Below, piece after piece: positions 3,980 through 48,415 of a stretch of 64,000 nucleotides of DNA. Made by a program: the position numbers and the translations under genes. Every line of letters begins with the position of its first letter. Positions within the stretch are counted from its first letter, which is position 1. The notes beneath the pieces are model-generated. The model saw only the letters and a program-made list of their open reading frames with translations, was not told the origin of the DNA and did no database searches. Source of the DNA: Verrucomicrobiota bacterium (lineage in GTDB: Bacteria; Verrucomicrobiota; Verrucomicrobiia; Palsa-1439); assembly GCA_003164675.1 (NCBI GenBank), contig PLTX01000020.1:1-64000 (forward strand). Reading direction: 5' to 3'.

Positions 3980-5779
3980 TCAATGCGGCAGCACTTTGTA
4001 GTACTTGCCGTTTGGGTAGGGAAACCCGTGGGGTTTGTAATTTTGAAACCAGGGTTGGTAGAGTCCGTATTCCAGTCGATAATCCAGCAGCGCCCAGACG
4101 CAGTCGGTGGTGGTCATGTCGGCCATCTGTTCGTACAAAGCCGTGCGCTCGGGTGAATCGGCCATGGTGAGGATGCGTTCGTACTGGCGGTCAAAGGCCG
4201 GGTTCTGATAATTGCAGGCGTTGATGCCGGGACACTTGTTCGGGCCGTAGAACAGTTGCAGGAAGTTCTGCGCATCGGGATAATCGATGATCCAAGCGCC
4301 CCAGAAGACTTGCGTCTCGCCGTCGTGTTCGCGCCGCAGATATTCCGCGAAACTTAGTTGCTGAACGATGAGCTCGACGCCGATGGCGCGCAATGCCTCT
4401 TCGTAAAAGTCCGCCTCCTGCCGCGCGCCGGTGCTTCCTGCACCCGGCAGGATCATTGTCAGCCGCAAGGCGTTTCCATGCTCGTCGCGGCCACCTGGGA
4501 ATCCGGCTTCGGCGATCAACTGTTTGGCGCGCTCGAGATTGAACTCGTAGGCATACGGTTTGTCCGTATGCCCGGCAACGCCGGGCGGGATAAACGAATT
4601 GGCAGGCATATAGCGGTTGTTGAAAATGACCTCCACGTATTTCTTCACATCAATAGCTGAGGCAAATGCCTGCCGCAGCTTCCGGTGACGTTCATTGATG
4701 ACCGGGTCCGTCGAGACCCCAACTGCCGAATCCAGCATGTTGAAGCCAATGTAGTCCGTGCTCGGCTCGGGCACTTTATAGAGACGGATGCCGCGTCTCA
4801 CCAAATCGGGTGAGAGCGAGAGATCAGGAGCGATTGCCTTTTCGAAATAGTCCTTGCTAAGGCCGGAACTGAAGATGCGTCCTCCCAGAAACATCTGCCA
4901 GACCGTGTAGAACTCGCGGATATCGTACTCGACAATGCGATCGACGAGCGGCAATGGTTTGCCAGCGTCATCGAGCAATCCGGCGGCGCGGTCGCCCGGC
5001 TCGCCCGTGCTGGGGTAGGTTTGGCCGTTAAATGTCGGGTTGCGTTCGTATTCGAGGCGATAATTGGGCCGCCAACTCTTCAGCCGAAACGGCCCGGTGC
5101 CGACCGGATGCCGGCGGAACTGCTGGCCGTAGAACTCGACCGCCTCGTGCGGCACCACAAACGCATAGCACATCGTCAGGACGTACAGGAGCTGCGGGTA
5201 GGGCTTGGCCAGCTGAATTTGCAGCGTGTATTTATCCGTGGCTTGAAAACCGGGTAAAGGCACGGAGTAATCGACCGGGCCGTTAATCGCGCCGATTTCT
5301 TTCACCCAATCGTCTGCTCCCAAGACATGGCCGGCAAAAATCCAATCGCCTTGCGATTCGAGATGCGGATCGAGGACGCGCTTGAAGGAATACACGAAGT
5401 CGGCCGCGACGACTTCACGGCCTTTGCCGCCGGGAAAACAGGGATCATCAATGAAGCGAACGCCGGGCTTTATTTTGAAGGTGTAAGTGAGTCCATCCGA
5501 GGAAATGTCCGGCATTCCCTGGGTAAGGCGCGGAATTGGGTGATAGGGGCGATCCAAATAGGCATATTCCAACAAACCTTCGTAAACGTAAGAGACCTCC
5601 CTGGCGGACTCGACATCGACGGCGTCAACGGGGTCGAATCCCTTGAAATCGCCGCCGACACGGCAGAGCGTATTCCCCTTGTCCGCCGAATCGGATGTAA
5701 AAACCGGGCCACAGGAAATCGCTGTCGCGATAATCGCTCCTGCGCTAAGGAGGGCGAGCAATCGCGACGAGGGCATCAT
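3980..5779 (-). CDS. oppA: Peptide ABC transporter substrate-binding lipoprotein (OppA-like, SBP family 5)
   Basis: Lipobox ATAISC; SBP_bac_5 features (FDPVDAVDVESAREVSYVYEGLLEY, GTGPFRLKSW). Confidence 0.88.
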   Translation of the reverse strand: MMPSSRLLALLSAGAIIATAISCGPVFTSDSADKGNTLCRVGGDFKGFDPVDAVDVESAREVSYVYEGLLEYAYLDRPYHPIPRLTQGMPDISSDGLTYTFKIKPGVRFIDDPCFPGGKGREVVAADFVYSFKRVLDPHLESQGDWIFAGHVLGADDWVKEIGAINGPVDYSVPLPGFQATDKYTLQIQLAKPYPQLLYVLTMCYAFVVPHEAVEFYGQQFRRHPVGTGPFRLKSWRPNYRLEYERNPTFNGQTYPSTGEPGDRAAGLLDDAGKPLPLVDRIVEYDIREFYTVWQMFLGGRIFSSGLSKDYFEKAIAPDLSLSPDLVRRGIRLYKVPEPSTDYIGFNMLDSAVGVSTDPVINERHRKLRQAFASAIDVKKYVEVIFNNRYMPANSFIPPGVAGHTDKPYAYEFNLERAKQLIAEAGFPGGRDEHGNALRLTMILPGAGSTGARQEADFYEEALRAIGVELIVQQLSFAEYLRREHDGETQVFWGAWIIDYPDAQNFLQLFYGPNKCPGINACNYQNPAFDRQYERILTMADSPERTALYEQMADMTTTDCVWALLDYRLEYGLYQPWFQNYKPHGFPYPNGKYYKVLPH

Positions 5780-35954: not shown

Positions 35955-36330
35955 CTTGGTCCTCTCCTCTTCCTCTCAGGGGTGAGGGAGACAGGAGGCG
36001 GAAGGCGGGGGCACCGCTAGAGCCAACGGTCGTGCGGGAGCCCGACCCTCCGAGCGGAAGCGGCGGCAAGCAGGGAGGAGACGGCACGGGGATGCGGCTC
36101 GCCGGGAGGCTCGCCCTCCCATGCAGAAAGCGCCGCGTCGGGGGGCGCGGCCTACAACAGCAAAGGCGGCGGGACCGCGCTTTGCCGCCAAGGCACAACG
36201 AGGCGGCGGGTTGGCGGGGTCTACAATCACGCGCAAGAGAACGTGAGATTTAGGACGAGGCACGGCGACAGAGCGCCGTGGCTACAGTACGGCGGCGGGT
36301 CCGCGCTTATCAAGCGCGGCCACAGGTGAC
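35955..36330. repeat. Cluster of dispersed palindromic repeats (REP/BIME-like)
   Basis: Stem pairs: GGTCGTGC/GCCCGACC (36028-36047), GCCGCG/CGCGGC (36132-36151), CACGGCG/CGCCGTG (36261-36280), CCGCGCTT/AAGCGCGG (36301-36319); most followed by ggYcYacaR tails. Confidence 0.7.
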
Positions 36331-36881
36331 CCCGCCACAACATCGCGCCCACCGCTCACCCCTGCTGCGTGACGCGCGACACCACTTTCTGTTTTTCTGA
36401 CCGGCCATCAGAAAGGACTGGACAGTCTGTATGCGATGGTGTATGGTCGGCACGGTTGTATTTTGATCTTTGATATAGGGGTTTGGGGACTGCTGGAAAA
36501 CCCCTCACCTTGATCCTTTGCCGCCTCAGCACTGCCAGCGGCTTCTCGTCTGACTCGATTCCCCCCGAGGGGCGAGGAAACGGGAAGGGTGGCGGGTTTG
36601 GCCGCCGGGTGCGGCTGGAGGGGAACCCCTTCGACCAGCCTTCGCTAAAGCTACGGCTGGCAGGCTGGCTCAGGGTAGACAGGGGAAAGGGGGCAGCGCG
36701 AAAACACGCTTTCTGCCAAACGAAGCCAATTGTTTGAGGTGCTAGCGGTTGTGGATTGGCTTGATGGATAAGGCGTTAGAAGCCCAAGTGCGCCATTTTG
36801 TCACATGGCTTCGTTTTGCCGGAAATGGCTTCGTTTGGGGGTGTTTGATGGGCGCCGGAAGCAGGTTTTGGGGCCGAAACC

Positions 36882-37292: not shown

Positions 37293-37558
37293 GGAAGCTC
37301 CTTCGATGGGCGGCGCTTGCGACAACGCTTCTGCCGTCGAATCGCTCGGTTGGTTGAAATTACGCGACTCGTCCGAAGATACGCAAGAGAATTGACAGGG
37401 TCCGGCGGCCGTGGCGCAAAAGCCGTATCGCCTGATACAATCACTTGCTATTCCTGTGATTGGGCTTACGGTGCTGTGGAGAGTCGAAGTTGCAGGGGAC
37501 CTGGCTTCACTTTCTGTCGTTCCGAATTGACCATCGTCAACGCAATGGAGATGAATCT

Positions 37559-37786
37559 ATGAACAAGCAAGCCGCAGAGATGGCCGGCCGCATCCAGCGT
37601 GCCGTCAAATCAGGCAAGCTGACAGTCGAGGGAAGCTACACAATTCCCGCACTGGCGGCCGCCATCGGCATGACGCGGGCGCAATTGCGTCAGGCGGTCA
37701 ATCGGGAGTTTGGATCGGTCGCAAGCTTCTGCGCGGACCTTGGATTCGGTCATATGATCACCGAGGCAGTCGCAGCGGTCCAATAG
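37559..37786 (+). CDS. Small hypothetical protein with possible HTH
   Basis: YTIPALAAAIGMTRAQLRQAVNREFGS resembles an HTH; followed by a terminator hairpin. Confidence 0.55.
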   Translation: MNKQAAEMAGRIQRAVKSGKLTVEGSYTIPALAAAIGMTRAQLRQAVNREFGSVASFCADLGFGHMITEAVAAVQ

Positions 37787-37821
37787 CGGGGGCCGCGCCT
37801 CGACATTTCTCGACTCAAAAG

Positions 37822-37855
37822 AAACAGCGATAGCTAAGTTCGGCTATCGCTGTTT
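37822..37855 (+). terminator. Strong stem-loop, likely rho-independent terminator
   Basis: AAACAGCGATAGC-taagttcg-GCTATCGCTGTTT, 13-bp perfect stem. Confidence 0.75.
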
Positions 37856-38181
37856 CCCGCTTCGGCATCCCTGGTTCTGATGAACATCTTGGCAGAGCCA
37901 TACGAGCGATGCTTCAGCAATATAAGCCTGATTTGGGAATAACCTAATTATTCCGTGAAGTAAGTTTCCGATGAAAATAGACAAGGTCTTCTTTTGACAC
38001 GAGGATGCATTGATTATCGGACCCATTAGACTCAACTCTCACTGAGCGATACCTCCGTCGTCCCGTCCCGCATGTGGATTGACTCCTGATCATCATCCAC
38101 GCACGCCACCGCCTGAGCATATTTGTCCCAAAGATTGGTTATGACAAACAAACCAGTCCTGGTTGCGGCGAGGCTCGCGAA

Positions 38182-38574
38182 TCAGTAGGCGAGCTTCAAC
38201 TCGTAGCGCAAGACGTTGTGGCAATGGATCGTGTCGATCGTGGTCTTGTTTTGCCAGCCCTGGCAGGACAGTTCGCCGCTGACAGTGGTGCGCTTTTGGG
38301 CGACCGCGCTGGCGAGTTCCTTGGTCAGATCAAAATCGCCGCGGATGCATTCATCGTTGGGACATCGGAAACGGAACACAGACTTGGCGTTCTCGAGGTT
38401 GACGACGTATTTGAGCTGACCGTTCTGGGCAACACCTTTTGGGTTGTAGTACCCCACCTTCACGATCAGAGACTTCAACTTTTGGAATTTGTCCGCAAGA
38501 CTGGGTGAGGCTTTCACCCGCTCGCCTTCCTGATCGCGGTATTCCGCTCGTAGACCTATTTTTTGTCGATACAT
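38182..38574 (-). CDS. Conserved-looking hypothetical protein with Cys motifs
   Basis: MYRQKIGLRAEYRDQEGER...FRFRCPNDECIRGDFDLT...CQGWQ...IHCHNVLRYELKLAY. Confidence 0.65.
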   Translation of the reverse strand: MYRQKIGLRAEYRDQEGERVKASPSLADKFQKLKSLIVKVGYYNPKGVAQNGQLKYVVNLENAKSVFRFRCPNDECIRGDFDLTKELASAVAQKRTTVSGELSCQGWQNKTTIDTIHCHNVLRYELKLAY

Positions 38575-38734
38575 AATGGCAACTTTCCAGACTGAGTATT
38601 GGTGGCAACTGAAGTTCCACAGCTAAACGGAGAGTCGAGGAACAAACACGGCAACGCCGCCGCATTCCACATTAGGCACTAGCTTACGCCCAATCGGTAG
38701 AATAGCAATCTATTCCTGCCTATCAGAGCATGGG

Positions 38735-39166
38735 GTGTTCACCCCATTGCGGTTGTTGCCGAACAGGGCATATGTTGCTGCAGCTTCACAAGATATGGAT
38801 TTTCACTACGGTTTGGCTGGCCATATGTGGCGATGCCGAAGTCTGGATGAACGACACATGGCGCTTAATAACATAGGCAGTATTACCAGCAAGAGAGACC
38901 TGGCAATTTTGGGGGTGTTCGCCTGCTCGTTCGCGGCATTGCTCCTGTTTCGCATGAATGTTTGGGGCATTCTTGTCATTTCGGCGTTGTTTGTAGGCTA
39001 CCTATCCTGGGCTGCCACCCAGTTTCTCGTAAGGCAGCACACCTTTAACAGCAGAAGCATTACGGCGTGGGCCTTGCCGGTGGGCATGGCGGTTTTTAAA
39101 GTCCTCTTCTGCCTGGGCTTGGTTTGGCTGGTCGTGTGGCTCGCGCGCCGCTTGTTTGGATTTTAA
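38735..39166 (+). CDS. Small membrane protein, hypothetical
   Basis: Several hydrophobic segments; true start uncertain (perhaps MALNNIGSITSKRDLAIL), since the 5' part overlaps a repeated intergenic element. Confidence 0.45.
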   Translation: MFTPLRLLPNRAYVAAASQDMDFHYGLAGHMWRCRSLDERHMALNNIGSITSKRDLAILGVFACSFAALLLFRMNVWGILVISALFVGYLSWAATQFLVRQHTFNSRSITAWALPVGMAVFKVLFCLGLVWLVVWLARRLFGF

Positions 39167-39618
39167 CTTTCGGGGTAGGCGGGAACCCGTACAACCTCAA
39201 TGAGGCACGGTCGAAATGGGGCGGACCGCCTTTGGCGCGGCTTGGGAGATCTTACTACGAAAACGGAAAACACTCTCACAGTCAACGAACTCCGCATTCT
39301 TCAGGCTGTGGCGGGGCAAGCTCACAGGAATCTGAGGATTCAGGGGCCTAATTCGCCCCCCGCGGGAATGCATGAGACTGCGTTGGTTGAAAAAACAGGG
39401 ATACCGCTCGACGAACTTATGACGCTTCGTCGCGACGAGTATGACAGAATCAGGCGAAGCGGCATTGTCCAAAATGTTATGCGCGAAGCTACTGGTTGGT
39501 TTGACCGATGGCGATCGAAAGGACCGCTTCGGCTATGTGTGGATCACGCCTGCGGGATTGCAGGCATCCCACCCGGTGCAGTAATCCAAACGGGGCAAGA
39601 AACCTAAAAACGCCGCGG

Positions 39619-39945
39619 ATGTACGAAACAAACGTGATGATCAAGAGCATATCGAAGGTAGAAATGGGCCAGTTTCTTCCACGTCGATTTTACATCGATC
39701 GATTCATTGGGGCGGAAGCGGAATGGTTCTCGGATGCGGTGGGAAACATCATCGGCACCATCGCCAAGGGAACGACGAACCTGCCCTGGGGTTACGTCAT
39801 ATTGAGACGCGATGACGGGGGCCGGTATCAATTCTGGGACATGGAGACGAGGATCGAAAGTTGCGATGCCGCGCGGATCCAGATTGTCCGGACCATGGAA
39901 GCAACCCAGAAGGACGGCCAGAACTGTTCCCCTGTGGTGGGCTGA
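39619..39945 (+). CDS. Hypothetical, triplicated EWF...GNIIGTIA family (copy 1)
   Basis: EAEWFSDAVGNIIGTIAKGTTNLPWGYVILRRDDGGRYQFWDMETRIESCDAARIQIVRTME. Confidence 0.65.
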   Translation: MYETNVMIKSISKVEMGQFLPRRFYIDRFIGAEAEWFSDAVGNIIGTIAKGTTNLPWGYVILRRDDGGRYQFWDMETRIESCDAARIQIVRTMEATQKDGQNCSPVVG

Positions 39946-39964
39946 GACTCCGGTGTAAGGACCT

Positions 39965-40279
39965 ATGCGAATCAAGAACATATGCCGACCGAAATTTGAA
40001 CGGTTCCTGCAGTTTCATGCCATTCTGGAGACGGCCATCGGCAAGGAGGTCGAATGGTTTAGTGATCCCGTGGAGAATACGATTGGCACGATCGCCTTCT
40101 GTCAGGGCCAACGGGGCTGGAACTATGCCGTTCTGAGGCGGGATTGGACGGGTGACTTTCAAGTCTGCGACCTGGGAGCGAACCTGTATAGCCTTGACGC
40201 TGCCAGAGTTGACTTTCGACGAGCGATGGCAGGGGCGGAAAACACCGAACCTTCAATCTTTCCACGCAACTCGGAATAA
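39965..40279 (+). CDS. Hypothetical, triplicated family (copy 2)
   Basis: EVEWFSDPVENTIGTIAFCQGQRGWNYAVLRRDWTGDFQVCDLGANLYSLDAARVDFRRAM. Confidence 0.7.
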   Translation: MRIKNICRPKFERFLQFHAILETAIGKEVEWFSDPVENTIGTIAFCQGQRGWNYAVLRRDWTGDFQVCDLGANLYSLDAARVDFRRAMAGAENTEPSIFPRNSE

Positions 40280-40405
40280 GGGGTCATCGGTTGAACGATT
40301 GCCGAATATACTTTGCGAAACAACTCGCTATTCGCGGAATGAGGCTTACGCTGAACCCGGGTCTCAGCGAGCTGTCACACTCCGACCACATTCTACAGCG
40401 ACACG

Positions 40406-40795
40406 ATGCAGCCAGACGGCGCAACCCAACCTCAACCGTCGCTGCTGAGAAAGGCACTTATGCCATTTGAAAGCATCAGCCGGCAAAGATTCGATGCGTT
40501 CCAACCGCCCCATCTGATTTTGCAAAGACTAACGGTGGAACAGGTCGAATGGTTCACCAACACGGTGGGAAATATCATCGGCACCATTGCCGGGAAGGTG
40601 GACAACGGCTGGAGTTACGCCGTCTTGAAAGGCGACCGAAACGGCAATTATCGAGTCTGCACTCTGGGAGGAGACACCTTCAGTTTGAGGGCCGCGCGCT
40701 CTCGGTTCCTGCTGGATATGGAAGCGGCTGAGAAAGCTGAGGAGGAACTGGCGCGCCTGGAGAGAAGAAAGACGGTGGCGAACCCACGACCATGA
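40406..40795 (+). CDS. Hypothetical, triplicated family (copy 3)
   Basis: QVEWFTNTVGNIIGTIAGKVDNGWSYAVLKGDRNGNYRVCTLGGDTFSLRAARSRFLLDME; start may be MPFESIS. Confidence 0.7.
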   Translation: MQPDGATQPQPSLLRKALMPFESISRQRFDAFQPPHLILQRLTVEQVEWFTNTVGNIIGTIAGKVDNGWSYAVLKGDRNGNYRVCTLGGDTFSLRAARSRFLLDMEAAEKAEEELARLERRKTVANPRP

Positions 40796-41019
40796 AGCAA
40801 AAAACAGAACAGGTGAAACCGCTCAGCGAACGAGAAGTTCAAGCGTTCCTCAATGATGACCGTGAGTTGTCGGAGCAAGGCAGTATCCAGTGGCGGAGAG
40901 ACGGCATATGGCGTTGGGTCAGTTCCGACGGGTTGGCGTTCGCTGCTTCAGACGGCAGAACCGTCGACATCAGCCGAACCGCCAATGCGGAAACGGTAAC
41001 GGTTTTGCTCCCCCATTGA
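40792..41019 (+). CDS. Small hypothetical protein
   Basis: ATGA overlap with the preceding gene; VQAFLNDDRELSEQGSIQWRRDGIWRWVSSDG. Confidence 0.5.
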   Translation: MKQKTEQVKPLSEREVQAFLNDDRELSEQGSIQWRRDGIWRWVSSDGLAFAASDGRTVDISRTANAETVTVLLPH

Positions 41020-41173
41020 ACATGACGGACAGACAGCTGTCAAAGACGACCGGGTACGGCACGACCGCGCTTCGAATCGAATCCAGCCCGGTTGCATCCA
41101 AAATACGTGACGGGTCGCGGACGCCGTTTTCCCAATTGACGTGGGTCTGACTCAGGCTCCGAAGGAACATTTT

Positions 41174-42028
41174 ATGGTTACGGATCGATACAACGAAAGC
41201 AGCGATACCATCCAGCTCTACATGCGGGAGATTGGAAGGACGCCGTTGTTGACGCGCGCGGAGGAGATGAAACTGGCTTCGCGAGTCCGTCGAGGCGACA
41301 AGCAGGCGCGCGAACGGATGATCAAAGCCAATCTGCGCCTCGTCGTAAAAATCTCCTATGACTACGCCAATTTCGGAATGCCGCTGCTCGACTTGATCAA
41401 CGAAGGCAACATCGGCCTGATGAAAGCCGTCGAGCGATTTAATCCAAAGAAAGGCGCCAAGCTTTCCACGTATGCCGCGTTGTGGATCAAGCAGTCCATC
41501 CGCCGCGCCCTGTCGAACCAGTCCAAGACGATCCGCCTGCCCGTTCACGTTGTGGATAAGGTTCACAAATTGCATCGCGCGAGTGTCGAACTCACCGAGA
41601 CGCTTGGCCGCGAGCCAAGCGATGCCGAGTTGGCCAAGCGGCTGGGCCTGTCGCCGGCCAAGGTGGCCCAGCTTCGCGCGTGCGGCGTAAGCCCCGTTAG
41701 CCTCGATGCTGCGATCGGGGATGAGGACGACAATCGATTCAGCGACATTGTCGAGGACGAGGGCGCGATGACTCCGTACGAGCTGCTTCGGGTCAAGACG
41801 ATGCGGCAGGAAATCCGCCAGCACGTCAAGTACCTGACGCCGCGCGAGGCAGAAATCATCACCATGCGTTTCGGACTGGACGGGAAGGAATCGCGTACAC
41901 TGGACGAAGTGGGGAGGAAATTCAAGGTGACCCGCGAACGCATCCGCCAGATCCAGGGAATCGCGCTTGGCAAACTTCGCCGCCGGGTTGAGGCACTCGA
42001 CAAGGGCGACCTCATTGGCAAATCGTGA
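41174..42028 (+). CDS. Small sigma-70 family RNA polymerase sigma factor
   Basis: YMREIGRTPLLTRAEEMKLASRVRRGD, region 2 DLINEGNIGLMKAVERFNPKKGAKLSTYAALWIKQSIRRAL, region 4 EVGRKFKVTRERIRQIQGIALGKLRRR. Confidence 0.95.
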   Translation: MVTDRYNESSDTIQLYMREIGRTPLLTRAEEMKLASRVRRGDKQARERMIKANLRLVVKISYDYANFGMPLLDLINEGNIGLMKAVERFNPKKGAKLSTYAALWIKQSIRRALSNQSKTIRLPVHVVDKVHKLHRASVELTETLGREPSDAELAKRLGLSPAKVAQLRACGVSPVSLDAAIGDEDDNRFSDIVEDEGAMTPYELLRVKTMRQEIRQHVKYLTPREAEIITMRFGLDGKESRTLDEVGRKFKVTRERIRQIQGIALGKLRRRVEALDKGDLIGKS

Positions 42029-42401
42029 CCGCCTTGGCCGGGCGCAGTGATTCCGAAGCCGGGGTCAAACGCGATTCATACTCCCACGATGCTCGTCTCC
42101 TGGTTGCGGCAAACCTTGCCATAGAGTGAACCGGTTGCTTCCTTCGCCATGTCGGGAGCGTAGTCAGTCAGTGCCGCTTCGACGAGCGCGGCATCTCATG
42201 CGAGGAATCAAAGCTGGACATCACTCTTCTCCGACGGGCGGGCAGAAGAGATTGTTTGAGAAATCGCTAGGTTATTCCGTCGTTGGGGGTATGGTGGATC
42301 AGTTTCAGCGAGCTGCTTCACTCCGACCAGACCTCGCAGCACTGCGGTGCAGGAAGGCAGCACGGCGCAACAACAAACATCGCTGCCAGAGGAGATTCTT
42401 G

Positions 42402-42799
42402 TGGCCATCAGCCAGATCAGCAGAGAGGACTTTAATCGGTTCTTCAACGAGAAGTATACGCTCGCATGTGGATTACTGGATTGCGAGGCATTCAAATCGT
42501 GGCACACGCCGTCCAGGAGCGAGTGGCGTGATGTGTTGACCACGATCACCAAGATGCTCAAAAAGTGCGACTGGCCGTTGTACGAAGTCAGACGCGAGGG
42601 CGATGACGCGTCGTCCATGTATGTCACGAACACCGGCTTGATGATGAACGCCGTCCACAACCTGCTGGATGCATTGAACGGTTACAATGTGGCATCCGTG
42701 CCGTCGCCGGGACAGTGGGGTGACATCATGCGGGTGGTGGATGAAACCACCGAGCGTCGCGACGTGATTGACCGGGCGGGATCGGAAGGAATGAAATGA
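42402..42799 (+). CDS. Hypothetical protein
   Basis: ORF with SD-like gaggag upstream; ATGA overlap with the next gene; GTG start assumed. Confidence 0.5.
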
Positions 42800-43734: not shown

Positions 43735-45300
43735 TCACTCGGGCTTGCGCGCGTAGATGGCGGTAACGTCATCGGCATAGGCCAGGGTCCAATCCTTCCG
43801 TAACGAGAACAGCACATTCAGCGGATGCGCGCGCGGAAGAATCGTCCAGCCGACATCGTATTTGTGCAGGACCGTTTCCCAATTGGTTCCAACCGTGTTC
43901 ACGCTGCTGAACTCGCGGACGAGATCGGGGCCGTAGAAGTCGTTGCGACCATCCACGAAAACCCGGTGGGCCGGCATCGTCAGCATGAGGTAGCCTCCCC
44001 AACCGTAGTCGTTGAACATTTCGCCACGGACGGCTTGAGGATGGGCCGTCACGAACTGGACTGCGGCGACGGGGAAGCGGTTGGAAAGCACGTCGGTGGT
44101 GATCGCGGGCTTGCCGCCAACCAGATTTGGTTTGGCCAGGACCGCCACGAGCGCAAGGAGTGCCACCGCGACCGTCGCCCGGCCATCTGCGGTGCGATTC
44201 CGCGTGGTCACGTTCTCCGAGAGTCGGCGATAGAAATTGAGCAAGCGGCCGGGCCTGGCGTTTGCGAGGCCGTCCTGCCATTGCTTTGCGAGGATGGGGG
44301 TGACGACCAGCGCGAAGATCGGTATATTGCGCGCAGCCAAAAGGGCCAGCAATCCCCACGTGCCCATGACAACGACGTCGGTTGGGCGCATCACCGGCCG
44401 CAGAAACACCAACGTCAGCCCGATCACCGCGAACTCGATCAGGAGTCCGTGCGCGGCAGCGGAGTGGAAATCCGGGGAGCGAAACTCGTTCGTGTAGTGG
44501 GCGAGCACGGGGTTTAGGAGGAATTCGACAACATGCGCCGGGAGCTGCCAACCGTTCGGATTGAGAAGTGTGACCAGCGCGCAACAGATCAGCAGTAACC
44601 CGAGGCCAATGAGCTTGCTTCGGATTGCGGGCCGGGCATCGGCCCGGGCTGTGATCAATGTGATGGCATTGCCGACAACGAACGTGGTGGTGATGACGAA
44701 ACCCGTGAAGAACGCGCCGTGCAGATTCACCCACAACGCCATCAGCGGCACGAGCCGCCAAAGCAACGAGCGCGTTCCCAGTTGTCCCCGGTCAAAACGC
44801 CGCAGATAGCCGGAGAAAATGACGGTGAGCAAGAGCGTAAACAGGTGCGGTCGGGCCAACCAATGCACCGTGCCGGCCATTGCCGCGACCAATGTCAGCG
44901 CGGTGGCGGGCAAGAGGCCAATTCCTTCTGATAGTAGTTGTCGGTGCAAGAGCCACAGACAGGTTGCGATCAGCACCGCGGCCAACAGCGCAATGCCGTT
45001 CCACCCCAACGCGTCACCGGCGGCGGCAAACAACACCTCGCTCAACCACTCTTTGGAGATCAGTGGCGCGTTGGCCCGCGTATGGGAAAACACGTCGGCG
45101 CGAATCACGGCGTGGTGTTCGATCATCCAGTTGCCAATGCGCCAATGCAGGCACGCGTCGCCATCGGAGTTGATCATCACCACGCGCCACTGTGACAACA
45201 TCAGCCCCAGCACGAAGATCAGCCACAACGACAACCCGATGGTTGGCAGCCACCGAGAGCGTGGCGGGGACGATTGATCCTGGAGGGGGGCGTCGGTCAT
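43735..45300 (-). CDS. Polytopic membrane protein, glycosyltransferase-like (paralog 1)
   Basis: Multi-TM; motifs HWRIGNWMIEHHAVIRADVFSHTRANAPLISKEWLSEVLFA and MFNDYGWGGYLMLTMPAHRVFVDGRNDFYG shared with the next two genes. Confidence 0.75.
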   Translation of the reverse strand: MTDAPLQDQSSPPRSRWLPTIGLSLWLIFVLGLMLSQWRVVMINSDGDACLHWRIGNWMIEHHAVIRADVFSHTRANAPLISKEWLSEVLFAAAGDALGWNGIALLAAVLIATCLWLLHRQLLSEGIGLLPATALTLVAAMAGTVHWLARPHLFTLLLTVIFSGYLRRFDRGQLGTRSLLWRLVPLMALWVNLHGAFFTGFVITTTFVVGNAITLITARADARPAIRSKLIGLGLLLICCALVTLLNPNGWQLPAHVVEFLLNPVLAHYTNEFRSPDFHSAAAHGLLIEFAVIGLTLVFLRPVMRPTDVVVMGTWGLLALLAARNIPIFALVVTPILAKQWQDGLANARPGRLLNFYRRLSENVTTRNRTADGRATVAVALLALVAVLAKPNLVGGKPAITTDVLSNRFPVAAVQFVTAHPQAVRGEMFNDYGWGGYLMLTMPAHRVFVDGRNDFYGPDLVREFSSVNTVGTNWETVLHKYDVGWTILPRAHPLNVLFSLRKDWTLAYADDVTAIYARKPE

Positions 45301-46832
45301 GACACACGCGAGAAAACGAGCGTCAATTGGTTCGAGTACACCAGCGTCCATTGCGGGCTGAATTCCAGAATTCGATTCAGCGGATGTTGCACGGGCAGGA
45401 TCGTCCAGCCGACGTCATACTTCCCGAACACGGCTTCCCATCCCAGCTTCGGCTCGTCAGCGGTGCGAAATTCGTGGAACAGATCAATGCCGTAGGAATA
45501 GTTGCGGCTGTCGATGAAGGGTTTTCGTTGCGGAAGGGCGAACTCGATGTAGCCACCCCAAAGGAAGTAGTTGAACATTTCTCCGCGGACCACGTCGGGG
45601 TGCATGCGCACGTAATCAAGGGCGGCAACCGGGTAACGGTCGGGCGGAAAACCAGTCGGAAACAGGGGCGCGCCACCGGCGATCCCGGGTTTGGCCAGCA
45701 CCAACAGCACACCAACTGCAGCAATCGCGATGACGGTGGCATCGGCCTTGTGGCCGGTATTGGGTATCCCAACGGTCCAATCACGGTATCGTCGAACCCA
45801 CGCGGAGTCCTGATTGGCCCGCGTGAACTCCGTAAACCATTGTGCGAGTATCGGGGTCACGACCAGTGCGAAAATGGGCACGTTGCGCGCCGAGAGCAGG
45901 GCAAAATAACCCCACCCGCCAATGACCAGGACATCCGTCGCATTCAGTTTCGGACGACTAATGATCAACCCGGTTGCCAGCAATAACAGCAATAGCAGAA
46001 ACCCGTGCATGCCCGTGGTGTGGAAGTTGGGCGAACCAAATTCAGTGGTCACGGTTGAAAGCTCGCGCGATCCCAGGAAGCTCACAATCTGCGCAGGCAA
46101 CCTCCAACCGACCGGGTTTATCAAACAAGCGGCGCCGCAAATCGCAAACAGTGCGGCAAGCTGTTTGAGTTTGGCCTGCGAAGCAGATTGACGCCATGCA
46201 TCAATCGCGCTGCCGACCGCGTACATGGCGATCAACACCAGACCCGTCGGAAACGCACCATGCAAGTTCGCCCACAGCACCATCAGCGGCGGAAGAAGCA
46301 CGAACAATCGACGCGCGGGAATGCGCCCCTGCTGAAACCATCGCAATTGCCAGGCGAATACCAGGGTCAGGAGATGCGTGAACAAGAGCGGTCGCGCCAG
46401 CCAGTGCATCGAGCAGGCGAACATCGCCGCCAATACCAGGACAGTTGCGAGCGCCGCGCGGCAGCCTTCCGCCAGCAGTTGGCGATGGAGCAACCAGAAG
46501 CAGGTGGCGATGAGCGATGCCGCCAGCAACACGACACCGTTCCAGCCGAACCATTGGCCGGCAGCGGCCACGAGCACCTCACTGAGCCATTCCTTGGCCA
46601 TGGATGGCCCGTGGTACGTGTGCAGCAGATTGTCTTCGCGTACGATGGCGTGGTGTTGGATCATCCAGTCGCCGAGCCGTTGATGCAGCGCGGGGTCGCT
46701 GTCCCCGCTGATGAGCACGATTCGGGCGCTGGTGAAATTCAGACCCAGAAACAGAATCACCCAGAGCAAAGCGCTGAGGGAAGGAAGCCACCAGCGCCGT
46801 TGCGCATCGGGATGGGGTGAAGCTGGGTTCAC
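45297..46832 (-). CDS. Polytopic membrane protein, glycosyltransferase-like (paralog 2)
   Basis: LHQRLGDWMIQHHAIVREDNLLHTYHGPSMAKEWLSEVLVA; MFNYFLWGGYIEFALPQRKPFIDSRNYSYG; GTGA overlap with the upstream gene. Confidence 0.75.
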   Translation of the reverse strand: MNPASPHPDAQRRWWLPSLSALLWVILFLGLNFTSARIVLISGDSDPALHQRLGDWMIQHHAIVREDNLLHTYHGPSMAKEWLSEVLVAAAGQWFGWNGVVLLAASLIATCFWLLHRQLLAEGCRAALATVLVLAAMFACSMHWLARPLLFTHLLTLVFAWQLRWFQQGRIPARRLFVLLPPLMVLWANLHGAFPTGLVLIAMYAVGSAIDAWRQSASQAKLKQLAALFAICGAACLINPVGWRLPAQIVSFLGSRELSTVTTEFGSPNFHTTGMHGFLLLLLLLATGLIISRPKLNATDVLVIGGWGYFALLSARNVPIFALVVTPILAQWFTEFTRANQDSAWVRRYRDWTVGIPNTGHKADATVIAIAAVGVLLVLAKPGIAGGAPLFPTGFPPDRYPVAALDYVRMHPDVVRGEMFNYFLWGGYIEFALPQRKPFIDSRNYSYGIDLFHEFRTADEPKLGWEAVFGKYDVGWTILPVQHPLNRILEFSPQWTLVYSNQLTLVFSRVS

Positions 46833-48415
46833 GGTTGTTTGTGAAACACGGCGGCCACTTCGTTGGAATATGCGCAATGCCAGCCGGGCAACAGCGCCAG
46901 CGCGAGGTTGAGGCGATGATCGGCGGGCATCAGCGTCCAATCCACGTGGTACTGTTCGAGGGCCTGCTGCCAATTCGTGTGCAGAAGGGACGTATCGTCG
47001 TACTGGCGAATCAGCGATTCGCCGTAGAAATCAGTGCGGCCATCCACAAACACGCGGTGTTCGGGTAACGCGTACATCAGATAGCCGCCCCACACGTAGT
47101 AGTTGAACATGTTTCCCGTGAACAGGTCGGGGTGTTGGTGGATGTAGGCCACCGCGTCGACCGGCCATTTCTTCGCGGGGATTTCCGTCGGGTGACGAAA
47201 CACCACGATCGCCACGATGGCCACCACGCCGACCAGCAACCATGCCCGTGACATCTCGTAAATGTCACGCAGCCGTCCCGACATTCCCCGCACCCACAAG
47301 GGCGCGGCGTCGGCGAGTGCGGTCGCGAGGACCGGGGCCACAAAGATGACCGCCAGCGGAATATTGCGCACGGAATAGAGAGCAAGATACGTCCACGCAA
47401 TCAACAGCACCGCCGACGTCGGTGACAGGCGCGGTCGTGCCAACGCCAGCGTCAGAAACGTCAGCGCCAGCCAGGCGAGGAACCCGTGCGAATCGAACGC
47501 GTGAAAATCCGACGAGGCGTACTCAGCCAGCCAGTTCGTCAGGTAGTCCGAGCGAAGGAAGTGAAGGTTGTGGACGTGGAGATGATAGCCGCTCGGATTG
47601 AGGAGCGAGACGACTCCGCAAAGTGCGATGGCGCCGGTGAACACCTTCAGCTTTTGTCGCACGGCGCCCGATCGAGTTTGGTCGGCGCGAGCCAATACCA
47701 ATTCGATCACTGAGCCGAGCCAGTAGATGCCCAGCGTGATGAAACCAGCCAGATAGCCACCATGTAGATTGACCCACAGAAGTGTCAACACCCCCAGAGT
47801 GATGAGCAGACGACGGGCGGATTCACCGTGTTCGAAGCGGCGGAGCGCGTCCGACCACAACACCGCCAACAGGAAACTGAATGCGTGTGGGCGCGCCAAC
47901 CAATGCGTGCAGGCTGCCCACGCGGCGATGAATGCAACCAGGATCGCGACTGCGTGATTGCCGGTTTCCCGCGCCAAGTGACGGTGTAACAGGGCGAACG
48001 TCGTGGCGATCAACAGCGCGGTCACGACGCACAAGCCGTAGAGTCCCCACATCCGGCCCGCCAGCGCAAAGATGATTTCCGAAAGCCATTCCTTGGAGAT
48101 GATCGGCTCGCCGAGGCGCGTATGTGAAAACACGTCGGCGCGGATGATGTGGCCGGTTTGCAGCATGTATTTCCCGACGCGCCAATGCATGCAGGTATCG
48201 CCATCGCTGGAGGCCATCATCGTGCGCCACGGTTGCGCGAGAAGGATTAGTAAGATAACGAGCCACAACCATTGCGTGAGTGACGGCATCAGCCACGGCA
48301 GGATGCCGCCATACGACACCGGGCCGGAGTTTGGTTGTGGACGGGTCCCTGTCTCGGGAGCATTTGCGTTCGCCGCCATTTGCGGCAGCTTACGGAGCCA
48401 CGCCGCAATGTTCAA
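46829..48415 (-). CDS. Polytopic membrane protein, glycosyltransferase-like (paralog 3)
   Basis: MHWRVGKYMLQTGHIIRADVFSHTRLGEPIISKEWLSEIIFA; MFNYYVWGGYLMYALPEHRVFVDGRTDFYG. Confidence 0.75.
   Translation of the reverse strand: MNIAAWLRKLPQMAANANAPETGTRPQPNSGPVSYGGILPWLMPSLTQWLWLVILLILLAQPWRTMMASSDGDTCMHWRVGKYMLQTGHIIRADVFSHTRLGEPIISKEWLSEIIFALAGRMWGLYGLCVVTALLIATTFALLHRHLARETGNHAVAILVAFIAAWAACTHWLARPHAFSFLLAVLWSDALRRFEHGESARRLLITLGVLTLLWVNLHGGYLAGFITLGIYWLGSVIELVLARADQTRSGAVRQKLKVFTGAIALCGVVSLLNPSGYHLHVHNLHFLRSDYLTNWLAEYASSDFHAFDSHGFLAWLALTFLTLALARPRLSPTSAVLLIAWTYLALYSVRNIPLAVIFVAPVLATALADAAPLWVRGMSGRLRDIYEMSRAWLLVGVVAIVAIVVFRHPTEIPAKKWPVDAVAYIHQHPDLFTGNMFNYYVWGGYLMYALPEHRVFVDGRTDFYGESLIRQYDDTSLLHTNWQQALEQYHVDWTLMPADHRLNLALALLPGWHCAYSNEVAAVFHKQP

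Follow-up and report, generated by a model that had tools for sequence, protein, structure and literature searches.

The window analysed here, a stretch of 64,000 nucleotides at the start of contig PLTX01000020.1 (C113), belongs to the 3.6-Mb genome (G000) of an uncultured Verrucomicrobiota bacterium (GCA_003164675.1; class Verrucomicrobiia, Palsa-1439). Between a gene for a PaaI-like protein and 43.0 kb it carries an array of small ORFan genes, a short sigma factor gene and several copies of a short repeat that lies between the genes on both strands. A first-pass annotation of the DNA had described this repeat as a new intergenic element in a cassette-like array. Here, we compared the repeat and its surroundings across 11 genomes from the order and a further 275 from the class (G and C numbers denote genomes and contigs).

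The dispersed repeat and its promoter pattern

The repeat is confirmed as real. Its core CTATTCNNNNGATTGGGCTTACG, at three or fewer mismatches, occurs at three sites in the window (37448+, 38683−, and 40328+) against 0.01 expected by shuffling, and at 10 sites in the whole genome against none for a reversed control; one of the 10, on C52, lies inside an apparent coding stretch and is probably a chance match. A 38-nt weight matrix trained on 25 promoters, all of them outside the window, picked out exactly four window sites above 4 bits, and every one is among the copies annotated before (Table 1). In 200 shuffles of the window, the means were 0.21 sites above 8 bits and 0.08 above 11 bits, and the highest score reached was 17.8. 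The 45-bit site at 37440 is beyond doubt, and the other three are each moderate alone and unexpected as a group. A second, independent profile search returned the same four sites together with a weak fifth at 38762+, which the full-length matrix scores at less than 4 bits. The 42259 copy has diverged too far for detection by itself and aligns with the copy at 40321 and three further loci through a leader, GGTCTCAGCGAGCTGCYTCTCTCCGACCA. The consensus, strands and coordinates first given were right to within a few bases, and the downstream extension said to be common to the 40.3 and 42.3 kb copies is borne out by the leader alignment. Dispersal on both strands between small ORFan genes likewise holds, and the proposed whole-genome scan for copies gave the 10 consensus sites.

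The 25 copies align as a promoter: a −35 box TTGCWA, a 16-bp spacer, a −10 box TAYRTT, the five nucleotides GCAGT, and a start site (+1) on GGAGAGUCGAG. They are invariant at TTGC (−33 to −30), TA (−11 and −10) and T−6, the 16-bp spacing is constant, and in the aligned units +1 is exactly the first base of an RNA helix described below. The pattern agrees with that of sigma-70-type promoters (TTGnnn and TAnnnT 16–18 bp apart, with a purine start 5–8 nt further on), the start here being a G after 5 nt. The same 38-nt sequence stands directly upstream of small RNA (sRNA) genes elsewhere in G000 and in six related genomes. Judged from the sequence, the element is probably a conserved sigma-70-type promoter of lineage-specific multicopy transcription units. 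Its two orientations would reflect transcription from both strands. A likeness to cassette recombination sites is not supported: the invariant positions are those of a promoter, and +1 falls at the start of a structured RNA or mRNA leader.

Predicted small RNA genes with a common terminal helix

Copies elsewhere in the genome (on C63, C93, C104, C13, and others) run past the core into GGAGAGTCGAG...CTCGACTCTCC and a T-rich run. The GGAGAGTCGAG sequence has 22 occurrences in the genome and none in the control, mostly as inverted pairs spanning 47–110 nt, and the RNA is closed by an 11-bp helix of invariant sequence between its 5′ and 3′ ends, GGAGAGUCGAG/CUCGACUCUCC. In the 12 nt past the 3′ arm the fraction of T is 0.52 versus a background of 0.20 (TTT in 22 of 27), so that a terminal helix is followed by T-rich DNA as in sRNA families with their own terminator. 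The units are free-standing: for most of them, the gene next downstream is encoded on the other strand. Twelve promoter-plus-helix copies are present in G000, and there are more in G001, G002, G007, G009, and G010. A covariance model used to find the family across genomes recovered about 20 copies or relics in G000, 5–6 in G001, 9–11 in G002, four in G007, three in G010, and one each in G009 and G004. The family is carried by seven of the 11 genomes of the order and by none of the 275 others in the class; the model had no matches in the order's remaining four genomes.

Inside the common helix lie about eight core classes, among them A (CGACCCUCUC...), B (ACGCUYUCUCGC...), C (GGGGUUCUC...GGCUUGAACG), the short class S (GUUGAAGUUGC...), D, E, and F. 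Of 12 bodies, 11 have fold z-scores between −2.6 and −6.7, to which the helix itself contributes; the class C body reaches only −0.85. In Rfam, where membership was taken as a gathering score reached or E ≤ 1, no family matched the RNAs and only tRNAs were found; a literature search gave no mention of the family either, and the claim that the element is undescribed holds within the libraries searched. A retron noncoding RNA was considered and rejected, as no RVT_1 domain occurs in G001 or G002 despite their 5–6 and 9–11 copies. The RNAs are likely co-regulated base-pairing sRNAs.

Promoters and bodies have been shuffled relative to each other. Class B bodies follow promoters of type 1 (G002:C3b, G001:C22c), type 2 (C2, C35), and type 3 (C117, G001:C22a), class C bodies those of types 4 and 1, and class A bodies those of types 1 and 2, with one class A copy lacking a recognisable promoter. 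The bodies of G002:C3b and G001:C22a are 95% identical and their promoters 37%, with a sharp change at +1, and the class B body G002:C3b has a promoter 87% identical to that of the class A body G002:C56. Edges at +1 might be sharpened if selection acted on the body only, but that fails to explain the occurrence of one promoter type on several bodies. One class B body in G001 is 95% identical to a non-orthologous copy and 90% to the syntenic one, which is suggestive of conversion without being decisive. A tRNA-Gly(CCC) gene lies beside clpS at G002:C3 (L086:8661), G001:C22 (L091:5789), and G000:C117 (L097:10489); synteny among the three species ends at the 3′ end of the tRNA, and the sRNA and small-ORF (open reading frame) content beyond differs and is reordered, so that this locus is likely an island hot spot.

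Taken as a whole, we consider it quite probable that the repeat is a promoter for sRNA genes and small ORFan genes whose units are mixed by exchange. Most units elsewhere in the genome would be free-standing sRNA genes of 47–110 nt, with transcription ending at the T-rich stretch, and the same promoter would also drive small ORFan genes, such that small RNA and small protein genes are co-regulated. The units would multiply by tandem duplication and by homologous exchange at the common promoter or +1 sequence, so that a promoter type comes to stand before several bodies, and a body behind several promoter types. The RNAs may act by base pairing, and pairing of the 3′ arm in trans could tune translation of the mRNAs of one small-protein family, W4 (see below). 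A bolder version, which we regard as doubtful, is that the invariant GGAGAGTCGAG/CTCGACTCTCC ends are themselves exchange points and that promoters, cores and small ORFs are modules recombining at +1, perhaps with a dedicated helix-recognising protein; if true, such exchange would build new small RNAs out of interchangeable parts.

Units of the window array and recurring small proteins

Within the window, the promoter mainly precedes a 5′ leader and a small ORFan gene, and there are in addition one candidate sRNA and one relic helix (Table 1). The best copy, at 37440, places +1 at 37478 on GGAGAGTCGAAG and is 94% identical over 48 nt to the sRNA promoter on C63. Its gene product, W6, is weakly helix-turn-helix (HTH)-like, its GntR-HTH match lying below threshold; on C18 of G009, a genome of another genus, a W6 homologue (54%) lies 54 nt behind the same promoter and a helix RNA of 47 nt, and a homologue of W5 comes after it. 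The candidate sRNA has a fold z-score of −3.1 (one of 200 shuffles folds as well) and contains no ORF of at least 50 aa. The leader of W5, a protein with no Pfam match and no family, retains a 3′ arm, CCTCGACTCTCC, with an exact GGAGAGTCGAG match at 38629–38639 that is one of the 22 in the genome. W1 has paralogues at about 39637 and 39965. The second conserved mRNA leader (GGTCTCAGCGAGCTGCYTCTCTCCGACCA; window 40356–40459 and 42295–42400, and also L095, L012, and L086) has five copies among the loci examined, which stand before two unrelated small ORF families.

Table 1. Coordinates and scores of the features of the array, with some RNA and small-ORF family members elsewhere
Feature	Position	Strand	Matrix (bits)	Profile (bits)	Details
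Type-1 promoter, best window copy	37440..37477	+	45.0	31.6	−35 TTGCTA 37445–37450, −10 TACGGT 37467–37472
Leader starting GGAGAGTCGAAG, then ORF W6	37478..37786	+			ATG 37559, 75 aa
Candidate sRNA, ~100 nt	37811..37913	−			Behind 37951 copy; ends in 14-bp terminator hairpin (37821–37856), then TTTT
Promoter copy	37914..37951	−	12.2	12.4	Variant −35 TAGGTT, −10 TATATT
ORF W5	38182..38574	−			130 aa; homologues adjoin sRNA genes at G000:C31 (62%) and G009:C18 (57%)
Relic 3′ arm of sRNA terminal helix (CCTCGACTCTCCGTT)	38627..38641	−			In W5 leader; 5′ arm lost
Promoter copy before W5	38676..38713	−	16.2	14.3	−35 TTGCTA, −10 TAAGCT
Weak partial promoter-like copy	38762..38780	+		5.8	Upstream of small membrane ORF starting 38858
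Promoter copy before W1	40320..40357	+	16.5		−35 TCGCTA, −10 TACGCT
Second leader family (CAGCGAGCTGNNNCNCTCCGACCA), then small ORF W1	40358..40795	+			W1 ATG 40460
Short RpoD-like sigma factor inside array	41174..42028	+			Sigma-70 regions 1.2–4
Divergent promoter copy, second leader, small ORF W2	42259..42799	+			W2 start 42401; from leader alignment
Longer RNA with own terminator, two copies	C93:8832 and C85:20351				
W3 family members	L012:2832-3050, L086:6719-6901, L087:5834-6026, L101:6273-6469, L102:6671-6860				~73 aa
W4 family members	L012:441-757, L099:6605-6930, L086:8300-8625, L051:1157-1369				~84 aa

The region from the PaaI-like gene to 43.0 kb is missing from the matching place in the congener G002, where a unit 72% identical over 809 nt to that of W2 is found at another locus (G002:C3:7355-8162). 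The array is supported as a presence/absence region between related species, as had been suspected. The sigma factor encoded inside it was tried as the cognate sigma of the promoter and found no support: every relative has an orthologue, whether or not it carries the sRNAs, and in G001 and G002 the orthologues lie on different contigs from the sRNA genes, so its presence in the array is probably incidental. Another dispersed repeat (~87% over 132 nt) adjoins the array on its left, at 36259–36332 and 36711–36842, and is also found near the sRNA gene on C24 (L096:5464-5595 and 5682-5758). After the array, at 43735–48415, three tandem paralogous large membrane proteins are encoded on the minus strand.

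No single gene recurs as a neighbour of the sRNAs; the small ORF families W1–W6 do recur. The W3 family (SNQRRLPDPE.CRTR...), with no Pfam match, is found near sRNA genes at five loci. In the W4 family (MNRHVLEISTHVFRLLRRRALL...), possibly ribbon-helix-helix proteins as judged by eye, the genes start with GGAGAGTCGAGG, and three loci have the promoter and a GGAGAG leader in common before the ORF; three members follow a type-1 or type-2 promoter with GGAGAGTYGAGG leaders. The C-rich 3′ arm of the sRNAs (CUCGACUCUCC) is the exact complement of the GGAG-containing leader of the W4 mRNAs made from the same promoter.

Alternative explanations and comparison with known systems

Several points weigh against a promoter of co-regulated sRNA and small protein genes. 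The complementarity of 3′ arm and leader is built in, as one conserved sequence is present on both strands, and a pairing between them is hypothetical. Spacer and discriminator are also conserved, which exceeds a plain sigma-70 promoter, and an extra activator or sigma may therefore be needed. Except for the one at 37440, the copies in the window are degenerate, possibly through decay in some cases. Little covariation is seen: an outer helix of invariant sequence offers none that is informative, the inner hairpins show little, and only two compensatory pairs occur, in one class. Transcription, the exact RNA ends, regulation and targets are all things that we infer from the DNA.

Alternatively, the 11-bp inverted ends might mark the RNA body as a small non-autonomous transposon or a cassette, inserted behind promoters, with the promoter forming part of some copies. 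Such ends are what terminal inverted repeats of a miniature inverted-repeat transposable element would look like and are equally the closing helix of the RNA; homology often begins exactly at the helix end, the body at G000:C117:32343 has no promoter, and both the reordered content of the tRNA-Gly/clpS locus among three species and the absence of the array, as a whole island, from G002 would fit mobility. We nevertheless find this improbable, since some eight kinds of core lie inside the ends with no carrier element seen, the most conserved part is the promoter, which lies outside them, a search for core inversion between the ends found none, no recombinase lies on the window's contig, and no carriage was found among phage or plasmid records. 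That the helix RNA is a 5′ leader or attenuator with a terminator before small genes, of which the free-standing copies would be relics, is suggested by G009:C18, where the helix RNA precedes W6-W5 by 54 nt in the same orientation, by the 3′ arm kept in the W5 leader of the window, and by the GGAGAGTCGAGG start of the W4 genes; yet behind most bodies the next gene runs on the other strand, and conservation of the free-standing bodies exceeds that of the sequence flanking them. We find this reading improbable too.

Least of all do we credit an integron-like array of gene cassettes recombining at the repeat, as first suggested, and we hold its probability to be very slight. Small ORFans, dispersed copies, variable content and the presence/absence of the region speak for the cassette-like part of that description, but the invariant positions are promoter-like and orientation is independent of any array. 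As already noted in the first-pass annotation, attC cores (RYYYAAC/GTTRRRY) are missing, and the ends are GGAGAGTCGAG/CTCGACTCTCC with no attC-like sequence. The recombinase or integrase that was to be looked for nearby did not appear: 18 tyrosine recombinases are encoded in G000 and none on C113, an incomplete contig, IntI features not having been tested separately.

Dispersed promoter-driven sRNA genes, the reading that we prefer, have counterparts among known systems. FopS of Bacteroides thetaiotaomicron is a set of paralogous sRNAs, encoded by about 14 dispersed genes per genome and confined to one bacterial family, expressed mostly from the canonical promoter of the lineage, and mobile DNA is suspected in its spread (PMC11697453). 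Sets of sibling sRNAs include the Cia-dependent sRNAs (csRNAs) of Streptococcus, LhrC1-5 of Listeria, and Qrr of Vibrio (PMC11697453, PMC5880928), and clusters of Cuckoo RNAs with the small DUF1127 protein CcaF1 are known from Rhodobacter (PMC10253847). The present family resembles FopS, compared by behaviour and not by sequence, in its dispersed multicopy paralogous sRNAs, its limitation to a lineage, its canonical promoter and a suspected role of mobile DNA. It differs in that FopS members share a seed sequence, whereas shared ends and promoter, several unrelated core classes and swapped promoters are found here. With the csRNAs, LhrC and Qrr it has in common sibling sRNAs under one regulator and a shared promoter design, and the C-rich pairing segments of the LhrC type recall its C-rich 3′ arm. 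Those sets have few copies and one body type, and we know of none with a shared terminal helix over diverse cores or with small-ORF units on the same promoter. Cuckoo RNAs are similar in that clusters of related sRNAs adjoin a small protein gene, and differ in motif (CCUCCUCCC loops), protein family and host, an alphaproteobacterium. Y RNAs, which are bound by Ro60, have paired conserved ends and a variable interior as in the present family; this identity was rejected, as no Ro60/TROVE gene occurs in G000 or eight family relatives, the control being positive, and Rfam gave no match. What departs from the known multicopy sRNA families is the enclosure of unrelated cores in one terminal helix and the swapping of promoters.

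The family would be a new, lineage-specific one in a phylum from which, as far as our literature search showed, essentially no sRNA families have been described, and it may offer a natural case of sRNA gene origin through promoter and body exchange at the transcription start, with small ORFans joining the same promoter. The reading of such repeats is corrected from cassette site to promoter, and start sites, RNA ends and a regulon are predicted for this uncultured group of Verrucomicrobia.

An apparent spread across phyla was rejected: the pattern GGAGAGTCGAG...CTCGRCTCTCC also matched Thiobacillus, Planctomycetes, and others, and these matches, like the lone one among viral records, are low-complexity GAGAGTCGAGAGT repeats without a promoter. 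Simple GAGAGTCGAGAGT tandem repeats of this kind are widespread in the intergenic DNA of Thiobacillus, Rhodocyclaceae, and Planctomycetes (L107, L110, L118, L121, and others) and are unrelated to the sRNA family.

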